Below are positions 4,244-45,149 of a stretch of 51,774 nucleotides of DNA, in pieces. The stretch covers positions 1 to 51,774 of the forward strand of contig JAKLZG010000025.1 of NCBI GenBank assembly GCA_024256165.1. The letters run 5' to 3'. The notes under the pieces are model-generated. The model was not told where the DNA came from. It did not search any database and saw only the letters and a list, made by a program, of their open reading frames with translations. Numbering within the stretch: position 1 is the stretch's first letter; each line of letters opens with the position of its first letter. A program made the position numbers and the translations under genes. This DNA comes from Candidatus Methylarchaceae archaeon HK02M2 (GTDB lineage: Archaea > Thermoproteota > Nitrososphaeria > Nitrososphaerales > JACAEJ01).

Positions 4244-4783
4244 TTGGTAGAAGAATTACCTTGCATATTAACTGGGCACTTATCAAAAAAAGGCGTCATA
4301 ATAGACGATAAGATAGCTATTGAAGAATTAGAAAATAGAGGCTATGGAGAGAGGGTAGATGGAAAATTCGTGTTAAAAGATTATGAAACTATATTTCTGC
4401 TATACAATGATATGATAAAAATATTTGAAGGAAAAAAAGAAATGTCTGTCAATAAGCTGGTGGATTATGCTATATCTAAGGACTCGAGTGCCTGGACCCG
4501 CTTTTTAATTTATAGAGATTTGAGGAGTCGGGGATATGTAGTTCGTGAAGGGTTTGGATTCGGGTTTGATTTTAGAGTTTACGATAGAGGCGAATATGGA
4601 AATAAATCAGCAAAATATGTTGCCTGTGGTTTAAATGAAGGCACAAAAACGCCTATAAAAGAGCTAAATGAGATTGTGAACCAGATAAAAATAATGGGAA
4701 AAGAAGCGGTTATAGCCGTAATAGAAAGACGTGGAGAGGTTATATATTATAAGATTCGGATCTGGAGACCTTACCAAGATTAG
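4244..4783 (+). CDS. endA: tRNA-intron endonuclease, catalytic His replaced
   Basis: EndA cuts BHB motifs in pre-tRNAs and other RNAs. The 179-residue protein has both family domains: an N-terminal part (GHLSKKGVIID...ELENRGYGERV) and a C-terminal nuclease part starting YRDLRSRGYVVREGFGFGFDF. The active-site Tyr (Tyr113, in DFRVYDRG) and Lys (Lys170, in IYYK) are present. The third residue, His in the usual HSKYLV, aligns with Ser122 in SAKYVA. That suggests either a structural subunit of an alpha2-beta2 enzyme with a second catalytic EndA elsewhere, or an altered active site. The start is a TTG at 4244. The gene lies 2 kb from the split mtnA and 1.5 kb from rtcB. Confidence 0.88.
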   Translation: MVEELPCILTGHLSKKGVIIDDKIAIEELENRGYGERVDGKFVLKDYETIFLLYNDMIKIFEGKKEMSVNKLVDYAISKDSSAWTRFLIYRDLRSRGYVVREGFGFGFDFRVYDRGEYGNKSAKYVACGLNEGTKTPIKELNEIVNQIKIMGKEAVIAVIERRGEVIYYKIRIWRPYQD

Positions 4784-6249: not shown

Positions 6250-7710
6250 TTACCCTTTTACAACACCCATAGGTATAAGCCTTGCCACTTTGGTCGCTAT
6301 TCCTACTTCATGGGAGACTTCTGCTACTGAGTCTACGTCTTTATAGGCTCCTGGCGCCTCTTCAGCAACACCTTTCCAGCTGGCTGCTTCAACGAGGATT
6401 CCCCTTTTCTTTAGTCTCCTTTTAATCTCATTTGCAGGATATGTCCTTATCGCTTTTGCTCTTGACATCATTCTTCCAGCACCGTGAGCAGTTGAGCCGA
6501 AGCTCACCTCCATAGCTCTGGAAGTGCCAAGGAGAGCCCAGCTAGCTGTACCCATAGATCCTGGTAAGAGTACAGGTTGACCTACATCTCTATAAGCACG
6601 AGGTATAGTAGAACTCCCTGATGGGAAAGCTCTGGTTGCGCCTTTTCTATGTACAACAAATTTCTTCTTCGATCCATCAAAGGAGTGCTCCTCAATCTTG
6701 GCTATATTATGAGCTACATCGTATACAAGCTTCATTCCAATATCTTTCTCTGGCATCTTAAAAACCTTCTCGAAAACATTTCTAGTCCAGTGAGTAATCA
6801 TTTGTCGATTACACCAAGCGTAATTTAACGCTGTTGCCATGGCCTTCATATAATCTTCAGCTTCTTTTGATTTATTTGGAGCGCATGCAAGCTCTCTGTC
6901 AGGAAGGTAGATATTGTACTTACGTACAGCGTTTTCCATAACCTTTAGATGATCGCTACATACTTGGTGACCAAAACCTCTTGAACCTGTATGGACTAAT
7001 ATAACGACTTGCCCAATTTGTAGCAAACCGAATCTTTTTGCAGCATCCTCATTGAATATATTATCCACTAACTGTATTTCGACAAAATGATTACCAGAAC
7101 CTAGACTACCTAATTGGGATAGCCCTCTCGACTTGGCCCTCGATGATACTTTATTTGGATCAGCATTCTCCATCGTACCATTCTCTTCACAGAACTCAGC
7201 ATCCTCGTCCCATCCATAACCATTTGAGATAGCCCACTTCACACCATCAGTGAGTACTTTATCTAATTGACTGACACTCAACCGGATTTGACCACGACTT
7301 CCAAGACCCGAGGGAATGGCTTTGGATAATTCTCTCAATAATTTTCCAAGGTTAGGTCGGACTTCTTTCTCTGTCAGATTTGTCTGGATCAGGCGAACTC
7401 CACAGTTGATATCATAACCAACACCACCAGGTGAAACAACACCTGTTTCAAGATCCGTAGCAGCAACACCCCCTATTGGGAAACCATATCCTTCATGACC
7501 GTCTGGCAAAACTATAACATGCTTATAAATCCCTGGAAGGTAACTCACGTTCACAGCTTGATCGATCGTCCTATCTGTAAGCATTTTGGTTAGAAGAGTC
7601 TCATCTGCAAAGATAGTTACGGGTACTCTCATACCATCTTTTGCATCGGTTCCGATACTATATTCTACGTCATTGATCTTTTTGATTGGATAGCGAAATT
7701 GTAGAGCCAC
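6250..7710 (-). CDS. rtcB: RNA-splicing ligase RtcB
   Basis: RtcB is the GTP- and Mn-dependent ligase that joins exon ends carrying 2',3'-cyclic phosphate and 5'-hydroxyl after EndA cleavage. The 486-residue protein has LPDGHEGYGFPIGG, the metal ligand Cys103 in GVGYDINCGVRLI, GSLGSGNHFVEIQ, HTGSRGFGHQV, LLPGSMGTASW and STAHGAGRMMSR with the guanylated histidine. It is full length and has no intein, although inteins are common in this gene. The start is the ATG at 7710. With EndA it provides the machinery needed for the tRNA-Ser and mtnA introns. Confidence 0.97.
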   Translation of the reverse strand: MALQFRYPIKKINDVEYSIGTDAKDGMRVPVTIFADETLLTKMLTDRTIDQAVNVSYLPGIYKHVIVLPDGHEGYGFPIGGVAATDLETGVVSPGGVGYDINCGVRLIQTNLTEKEVRPNLGKLLRELSKAIPSGLGSRGQIRLSVSQLDKVLTDGVKWAISNGYGWDEDAEFCEENGTMENADPNKVSSRAKSRGLSQLGSLGSGNHFVEIQLVDNIFNEDAAKRFGLLQIGQVVILVHTGSRGFGHQVCSDHLKVMENAVRKYNIYLPDRELACAPNKSKEAEDYMKAMATALNYAWCNRQMITHWTRNVFEKVFKMPEKDIGMKLVYDVAHNIAKIEEHSFDGSKKKFVVHRKGATRAFPSGSSTIPRAYRDVGQPVLLPGSMGTASWALLGTSRAMEVSFGSTAHGAGRMMSRAKAIRTYPANEIKRRLKKRGILVEAASWKGVAEEAPGAYKDVDSVAEVSHEVGIATKVARLIPMGVVKG

Positions 7711-43862: not shown

Positions 43863-44034
43863 ATACATTATTTTTGGCTTGAAGGGTAAAAACGTCTTTA
43901 GATAGTTGACCACTCATCTCGGCACTATCATAGCTAATTTCCTGTTTTTTTATATATCTTTCCTATTATAACAAATAGAGTTCAAGCGCCGGGAGTGGGA
44001 TTCGAACCCACGAGACCCCGAAGGGTCACAGACT

Positions 44035-44047
44035 TTCGTTCGATAGT
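44035..44047 (-). other. tRNA-Ser intron 2, 13-nt insertion in the anticodon loop
   Basis: The anticodon stem CAGGC/GTCTG encloses 20 nt instead of 7, so 13 nt must leave. Placing the cuts at the usual 37/38 site gives loop CTTGAGA and anticodon TGA. Because of repeated A bases the exact cut could shift by one without changing the product. A cut two bases after the stem would give anticodon CGA, also serine. I could not build a strict 3-4-3 motif here, so the boundaries are less certain than for intron 1. Confidence 0.7.
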
Positions 44048-44077
44048 CTCAAGGCCTGCGCATTCGTCCACTCTGCC

Positions 44078-44112
44078 TGCGAGGTGTGAGAATTATGATT
44101 TTCTCAATCACG
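44078..44112 (-). other. tRNA-Ser intron 1, BHB type, between positions 8 and 9
   Basis: The pre-tRNA has the canonical 3-4-3 motif: central helix CGGG/CTCG (one G-U), bulges ATC and CAG, and an inner helix GTG/CAC plus TGAGAA/TTCTCA with loop AATCATAA. The outer pairs are GC/GC. Cutting both bulges after the second nucleotide leaves GCCGGGAT joined to GGCAGAG, giving the conserved U8 and a normal G9 before the D arm. The removed piece is 35 nt. Noncanonical tRNA intron positions are known in crenarchaea and other TACK lineages. Confidence 0.87.
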
Positions 44113-44231
44113 ATCCCGGCAAATTTAACCCGGCAATTTAAAATTCTTCTATCTCCTTAAAATCCTTTCCAATTGTAATTAGACAAAACCTTAAGTTAAA
44201 AGTATTAATTTGATTTTTTTAAGTGTGATCT

Positions 44232-45149
44232 ATGCAAGTGCCAGATTTATCCATAGAGATATCGGGTTTTAAGATGAAAAGCCCATTAATGCTAGCATCA
44301 GGTATTTTCGGGACTTCTATAAAACTTCTGAGGCGTATATTTGAAACTGGGGCAGGAGCTGTGGTTACAAAATCCATTGGTTATGTGAAACGCATGGGAT
44401 ATAATAATCCAACTTTAGTAGAAGTCTATGGTGGGTACTTGAATGCAATAGGACTTTCGAACCCAGGTATAAAGGAAGTCTATAAAGAGTTATCTCGGTC
44501 AAAAATAAATGATCTACCATTAATTGTAAGCCTTTTCGGGGCTGAAACTTACGAATTTACAGAAATGATATCTCTTCTTGAAGATTTAAAGGTAAAAGCT
44601 TATGAGCTGAACATATCTTGTCCTCATGTTGAAGGTTTTGGTGCTGAAGTCTGTCAAAATTCGGATCTAGTCAAACAGTTAATAATGGCAGTAAAAGCAA
44701 AAACTCGTAAGCCTTTATTCGTAAAGCTCTCTCAAAATACGACTGATATAGTTCAAATAGCGAAATTAGCTGAAAATGCTGGAGCAGACGCCCTTACAGT
44801 CGTCAACACTCTTAAGGCTATGGCTATAGATATAGAGACTGGCAGACCAATTCTGGCAAATAAGATAGGGGGGTTATCAGGACCTGCTATCAAGCCTATA
44901 GCTTTAAGATGTGTTTATGAAATTTATCAGAATGTAGAAATCCCGATAGTAGGTTGTGGAGGTATAATCAATTGGCAAGATGCTATCGAGTTCTTTCTAG
45001 CTGGTGCTACAGCCATACAGATAGGTACAGGGATTGCTTACGAGGGATTGAGTGTGTTCGAGAAGATAAAACAAGGTATAAAGGATTATTTAATTTTGAA
45101 AGGGAAAAGAAGTGTGAAAGAAATAGTTGGTTTTGCCCATAGCTTCTAA
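44232..45149 (+). CDS. pyrD: Dihydroorotate dehydrogenase catalytic subunit (class 1B)
   Basis: PyrD oxidises dihydroorotate to orotate with FMN. The 305-residue barrel has SPLMLASGIFGTS, the substrate loop NAIGLSNPGIKEV, catalytic Cys in LNISCPHVEGFG, VKLSQNTTDI, KIGGLSGPAIKPIALR and GCGGIINWQDAIEFFLAGATAIQIGTG. Class 1B is supported by the PyrK gene overlapping its end by 23 nt, the subunit that passes electrons to NAD. The start is the ATG at 44232. Confidence 0.97.
   Translation: MQVPDLSIEISGFKMKSPLMLASGIFGTSIKLLRRIFETGAGAVVTKSIGYVKRMGYNNPTLVEVYGGYLNAIGLSNPGIKEVYKELSRSKINDLPLIVSLFGAETYEFTEMISLLEDLKVKAYELNISCPHVEGFGAEVCQNSDLVKQLIMAVKAKTRKPLFVKLSQNTTDIVQIAKLAENAGADALTVVNTLKAMAIDIETGRPILANKIGGLSGPAIKPIALRCVYEIYQNVEIPIVGCGGIINWQDAIEFFLAGATAIQIGTGIAYEGLSVFEKIKQGIKDYLILKGKRSVKEIVGFAHSF

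Follow-up and report, generated by a model that had tools for sequence, protein, structure and literature searches.

An intron at position 8/9 of an archaeal tRNA-Ser(UGA) gene and a leader copy of its 5' acceptor strand

Results

The tRNA-Ser(UGA) locus

The window analysed here, that is, the whole stretch of 51,774 nucleotides (nt) of contig JAKLZG010000025.1, belongs to the metagenome-assembled genome (MAG) HK02M2 (G000; 1,339,036 bases, 91 contigs, about 96% complete), corresponding to "Ca. Methanoporticola haikouensis" (Nitrososphaeria) from mangrove sediment of Haikou (PMC9478090). It contains, at 44120..43987 of the minus strand, a gene for tRNA-Ser(UGA) with two interruptions, an intron of 35 nt at position 8/9 and an insertion of 13 nt at 37/38. 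A further copy of the 5' acceptor strand of this tRNA is found in the leader. The features of the locus are the following:

44157..44162, minus strand: TATA-like TTTTAA, read from the sequence and centred some 25 nt upstream of the leader copy
44128..44134, minus strand: duplicate of the 5' acceptor strand in the leader, GCCGGG (44134..44129) plus U; copies in 24 of 24 genes with an 8/9 intron
44113..44120, minus strand: exon 1, positions 1-8, GCCGGGAT; pairs with the 3' acceptor TCCCGGC and is identical in intronless orthologues
44078..44112, minus strand: 35-nt intron at 8/9 with a strict bulge-helix-bulge (BHB), which recurs in 24 genes; its inner helix covaries and its excision restores the orthologous sequence
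44048..44077, minus strand: exon 2, positions 9-37, with the D arm, the 5' anticodon stem and the anticodon UGA (44051..44049), from sequence reading and BLAST of the mature sequence
44035..44047, minus strand: 13-nt anticodon-loop insertion at the canonical site 37/38 (coordinates as for a cut at this site), with a weak, non-strict splice motif, from congener comparison and folding
43987..44034, minus strand: exon 3, positions 38-73, with the 3' anticodon stem, long variable arm, T arm, 3' acceptor strand and G73, from the sequence
44232..45149, plus strand: pyrD, dihydroorotate dehydrogenase, an open reading frame named from sequence; a conserved divergent neighbour, the same neighbourhood being found at two other loci (L066, L067)

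The gene reads, on the minus strand, GCCGGGAT, 35 nt, GGCAGAGTGGACGAATGCGCAGGCCTTGAG, 13 nt, and AGTCTG...TCCCGGCG. Once both insertions are removed, an 86-nt class II tRNA is obtained, nearly identical to intronless orthologues, and all the traits predicted for this class are present: a 7-bp acceptor, U8, the UGA anticodon, a long variable arm, the T arm and G73, with which exon 3 ends, CCA not being encoded. The original prediction of a tRNA-Ser with two introns, one of 35 nt between positions 8 and 9 and one of 13 nt in the anticodon loop, yielding an 86-nt class II product with U8 and G73, was thus confirmed, and the anticodon could be read as UGA. The gene was not reported by ARAGORN, nor by Rfam at gathering score, as expected because of the 8/9 interruption.

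A search of the MAG, about 96% complete, with the 86-nt mature sequence did not find a second tRNA-Ser(UGA), which the prediction had named as a possible refutation, so that the prediction survives this check. The remaining matches were partial, and covered only the 3' part of other isoacceptors. A split tRNA was rejected, since the exons follow one another in a single stretch of 134 nt and are not at separate loci, and so was a permuted tRNA, the order of the exons being normal, with the 3' half not before the 5' half.

The intron at position 8/9

In the window, the BHB at 8/9 is composed of an outer helix (TTGC/GCAG), a central helix of four pairs (CGGG/CTCG, one of them G-U), two 3-nt bulges (AT^C and CA^G) and an inner helix made of GTG/CAC and then TGAGAA/TTCTCA. 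The strict BHB previously proposed for this site is therefore borne out. As BHBs are cut after the second base of each 3-nt bulge (PMC4307357), the predicted product is exactly the arrangement of the intronless genes, which run uninterrupted across GCCGGGAT|GGCAGAGTGG in G005, G003 and many other genomes. Excision is thus predicted to give a functional tRNA-Ser(UGA).

When 400 genomes of the class were searched with a pattern, the interrupted gene turned up in families f1, f2, f9, f14 and f17. Three further genes were read from fetched loci (L128, L129, L143), and four more were found in family f47, of another class, for a total of 24 genes with an 8/9 intron from five families of the order and from f47. 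Six pattern matches (L072, L073, L087, L146, L150, L151) were dropped, having no tRNA downstream. The nearest relatives by pyrD, HK01M and H03B2, carry the same gene at a similar distance upstream of pyrD, with a 30-nt intron at 8/9. The position assigned by the original prediction is correct, but the intron, which it considered uncommon between acceptor and D arm, is recurrent in this order. Other families (L109, L114, L117, L133, L106-L108) have other introns in their tRNA-Ser(UGA), located in the D loop and in the anticodon arm; the position of introns in this tRNA is therefore very labile in the order.

Across the genes, the 8/9 intron ranges between 13 and 37 nt. In all 23 aligned genes the bulges measure 3 nt; the 5' one reads (A/G)U^N and the 3' one NN^G. 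C3-G6 form the central helix with intron CCCG, CTCG, CCTG, TCCG or ACCG, and this helix is complete (four pairs) in 18 of the 23, the other five having three pairs; in the outer helix, the last two leader bases and G1-C2 pair with G10-G13. Pairs of the inner helix change on both strands (CG, AU, UA, GC), and over the whole structure 31 double-change cells were counted, versus 11.6 in shuffles and 0-14 when the structure was slid. As judged from sequence comparison, the 8/9 insertion is a real intron and not a chance pattern, because this gene is interrupted at this very site in 24 genomes.

A copy of the acceptor strand in the leader

The BHB engages the 5' acceptor strand: C3-G6 are paired to the intron, and the D stem takes up G1-C2. 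The acceptor stem, therefore, cannot form before splicing, and the 3' acceptor strand is left without a partner. This conflict was overlooked by the original prediction, together with the duplicate at 44134..44129, which falls beyond the interval it had assigned to the gene. In the window the copy can form 7 contiguous pairs with the 3' acceptor strand, GCCGGG being extended by a U-G73 wobble from the preceding base. A second 5' acceptor strand is found in the leader of every one of the 24 genes with an 8/9 intron; in the 23 genes measured, it starts 8-33 nt upstream of the mature 5' end, and can form 7-10 contiguous pairs with the 3' strand. The copy reads GCCGGG(U) in f1 genus 1, GCCGGGA in f1 genus 3, f14, f17, f47 and some of the f9 genes, GCCGGGG in the other f9 genes, and GCUGGGA in G049; in f2 it reads GGCGCCGG, and complementarity extends to G73 and to CC of CCA.

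Only 5 of the 34 genes without an 8/9 intron contain GCCGG in their leader, three of them being f11 genes with GC-rich leaders. The other two, in G035 (with a decayed sister in G009) and in G017, are probably relics of a lost 8/9 intron. The tRNA-Ser(UGA) genes in question, at L111 (G035), L112 (G009) and L133 (G017), are without the 8/9 intron, and the copy in their leader is either intact or decayed. The association between intron and copy has a Fisher p of 1.9e-11 (23 versus 34 genes, shared ancestry not being corrected for), and the longest leader:acceptor pairing also differs between genes with and without the intron (Mann-Whitney p 8e-8). The same contrast is seen within single genera: G004 and G006 carry both intron and copy, whereas G005 has neither; G032 carries both, whereas G019 has neither. 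Position 7 of the copy tracks the acceptor within f9 (A:U versus G:C), and a C-to-U change in L143 still leaves a G-U pair.

In the intronless G005 the same TATA-like box is found about 26 nt before the mature 5' end. In the window, given the distance of about 25 nt between box and leader copy, the copy should sit at the start of the transcript.

Folding of the precursors

The pairing between leader copy and 3' strand was predicted with a probability of 0.94-1.00 in 17 of 17 tRNA-Ser(UGA) precursors, at both 37 and 60 C (1.00 for the window gene), while that of the mature 5' strand with the acceptor was at most 0.05. When the leader was shuffled in silico, the mature strand regained the 3' acceptor strand in most genes, and the outer BHB helix was also abolished in most f1 and f2 genes. 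In 22 of 23 genes, the state combining leader:acceptor pairing with the strict BHB has a lower computed energy than the mature-acceptor state.

A second tRNA with an intron in the acceptor stem

The tRNA-Ser(GGA) gene of the same MAG (G000:C57:872-921; L140, L152) has a 23-nt intron within the acceptor stem, at 5/6, with a strict BHB, the central helix of which (UGCC/GGCA) includes leader base -1, while the inner helix is of 6 bp. Its leader copy is GCCGGGG. A 24-nt intron at 5/6 and a leader copy are also found in G001, G002 and G006; in G001 one of the four central BHB pairs is lost. All together, the copy is present in 4 of 4 genes with the 5/6 intron, versus 0 of 2 intronless orthologues (G003, G004), and in the four precursors it pairs with the 3' acceptor with a probability of 0.95-0.99. 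No leader repeat of the tRNA's own 5' end was found in 29 other tRNAs of the MAG.

Other tRNAs of the MAG are also interrupted. The tRNA-Ser(GCU) gene in the region of G000:C59:23118 (L141) has a 58-nt insertion near its D arm, absent from congeners, which contains GCCGGG and has CCTAG repeats on its flanks; the leader-copy explanation was considered for this insertion too, but a convincing BHB was not found. Two further tRNAs (G000:C91:37179 and G000:C85:2655) are interrupted in the D arm, their Rfam match being only partial.

The 13-nt insertion and the processing enzymes

Among the f1 genomes examined, the 13-nt insertion is found in HK02M2 and in two congeners (G001 and G002) only, and is absent from G004, G005 and G006; mini-introns of similar size occur at 37/38 in other families (e.g. 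L015, L016, L021). No strict BHB was found around it, either in the folds or in the suboptimal folds. A candidate TTGA/TCGA pairing is broken in G002, and folding favours a rival AGACT/AGTCT hairpin. Its exact splice sites were therefore set by comparison, because the BHB is weak and its pairing is not kept in congeners.

Genes for the processing of such precursors are present in the MAG, two of them in the window:

4244..4783, plus strand: structural (beta-like) subunit of the tRNA-splicing endonuclease, with no catalytic His (PF01974; solved EndA relatives; alignment with the alpha subunit)
6253..7560, minus strand: RtcB RNA ligase, for the joining of tRNA exons (PF01139, E 1.2e-177)

The distance between these two genes is about 1.5 kb, and they share the window with the intron-rich tRNA gene. 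The catalytic (alpha) subunit of EndA is encoded on contig C44, with Tyr, His and Lys all present, and RNase P RNA was also found. The endonuclease would be of the lenient heterotetrameric type; a lenient enzyme is needed, given the very weak BHB of the 13-nt insertion.

Discussion

We favour, with reasonable though far from full confidence, the reading that the tRNA-Ser(UGA) gene is functional and that its precursor bears a surrogate acceptor strand, the leader copy, which is displaced after splicing. What the analysis shows are the sequences, the link between intron and copy, the splice motif, and the presence of the enzyme genes and of RNase P RNA; where transcription starts, which strands pair in the cell and in which order the steps follow is what we infer. 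The transcript would begin at or just before the leader copy, as the TATA box suggests, and the copy is predicted to pair with the 3' acceptor strand, replacing the 5' one. The true 5' strand, so freed, could form the conserved BHB, with CGGG pairing to intron CYCG/CCYG and G1-C2 to G10-C11 of the D stem. A heterotetrameric endonuclease, to judge from motif and enzyme genes, would then cut at AU^N and NN^G, releasing the intron, and RtcB would ligate U8 to G9. At this point the full 7-bp mature acceptor and the restored tRNA core would displace the leader strand, to be trimmed by RNase P. The 13-nt insertion at 37/38 would be removed separately. By closing the acceptor/T-arm side of the precursor, the leader copy may also hold the exons together after cutting. 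Under this model, splicing at 8/9 comes before removal of the leader.

Several observations weigh against this reading. In one gene (L088) the computed energies favour the mature acceptor; relative to the computed minimum, the model state is less stable by 0.9-11.3 kcal/mol. Free folding often skips the central BHB helix, since the energy model penalizes a helix of four pairs flanked by two bulges; this model takes no account of recognition by the splicing enzyme. Most leader pairs are invariant, covariation being limited to position 7 (unpaired in 10 of 22) and to single wobbles. G017 and G035 have the copy without the intron, and the genes with the intron may share one origin. Finally, in Methanopyrus kandleri the ends of pre-tRNAs are trimmed before introns are removed (PMC3695527), an order opposite to that needed here for the 8/9 intron.

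The copies without intron, and the decayed one in G009, are also what would be expected if the leader copy were a functionless relic, retained by descent, of a partial tandem duplication by which the intron arose and which left the tRNA with its 5' end twice (copy 1, spacer, copy 2, intron), and copy 1 does lie at the distance from the TATA box at which the mature 5' end sits in G005. We consider such a relic unlikely, since the spacer varies widely in length and sequence, yet the copy stays complementary; its position 7 tracks the acceptor in f9, and in f2 it is shortened on one side while the match is lengthened into G73-CC on the other. Moreover, it is missing from most intronless relatives, and the second tRNA shows the same association. 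The pairing evidence would also fit a checkpoint, in which the leader copy chiefly keeps RNase P, trimming of the 3' end or addition of CCA from acting as long as the intron is present, instead of releasing the BHB; the f2 pairing, spanning G73 and CC of CCA, agrees with it. As a main role this is quite improbable: most f1 and f2 genes lose the outer BHB helix upon in silico shuffling of the leader, which points to a direct role in folding; a checkpoint requires the same structure, and may hold additionally.

Its location at the expected start of the transcript could suggest that copy 1 is the true mature 5' strand, a longer intron including copy 2. This was rejected as very improbable, because copy 1 mismatches the acceptor in three groups, f1 genus 1 (U7:U66), f14 (A7:C66) and f2 (5 acceptor pairs only), whereas copy 2 gives 7 acceptor pairs everywhere and adjoins the BHB cuts. 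A pseudogene or an assembly error could be suspected, as the data come from a MAG and standard tRNA finders miss the gene. The chance of either is very small: all stems are intact and the same structure is seen in 24 genomes, no second UGA gene being found in the MAG.

Extending the surrogate-strand reading to both tRNAs, it could be proposed, as a tentative generalization to which we give somewhat less than an even chance, that introns engaging the 5' acceptor strand can exist only together with a leader-encoded surrogate strand, and that such pre-tRNAs are strand-exchange switches, forcing splicing before removal of the 5' end, in at least two tRNAs and in two archaeal classes. This would explain why introns beside the acceptor stem are rare, as their BHB competes with the acceptor itself, a conserved workaround being found here. 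It would also show how an intron and its helper copy could be gained and lost together, and a 5' end repeated in the leader offers a new flag for tRNA finders.

The 8/9 intron is of a known kind, a BHB intron in a tRNA. It resembles the noncanonical introns of Thermoproteales and Thaumarchaeota (PMC4090602) in its 3-nt bulges, in its predicted cutting between the second and third bulge bases, in its presumed removal by EndA and in occurring with another intron in the same tRNA. It differs in its site, absent from the list given in that review (20/21, 22/23, 25/26, 29/30, 30/31, 45/46, 53/54, 56/57, 59/60), although this list ends with 'etc.', and in that its BHB draws on the 5' acceptor strand and on bases of the leader, which has a duplicate acceptor strand. 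In the literature searched (open papers only), no report was found of such a duplicate, of its link to acceptor-engaging introns, or of an intron at position 8; the 107 noncanonical introns of Thaumarchaeota reported with tRNAscan-SE 2.0 (PMC8450103) may include some of those described here. The 13-nt insertion shares its site with the canonical archaeal introns at 37/38, but, unlike them, has a very weak BHB.

As in the split (trans-spliced) tRNAs of Nanoarchaeum, Caldivirga and Desulfurococcales, complementary RNA encoded in the leader would help to place the parts of the tRNA for BHB cutting; unlike them, a single transcript is involved, and the leader would pair with the 3' acceptor strand of the same tRNA, mimicking the 5' one. 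The precursor is also similar to those of Methanopyrus kandleri (PMC3695527), archaeal pre-tRNAs with both leader and introns; the reverse order of processing predicted by the surrogate-strand model makes it directly testable.
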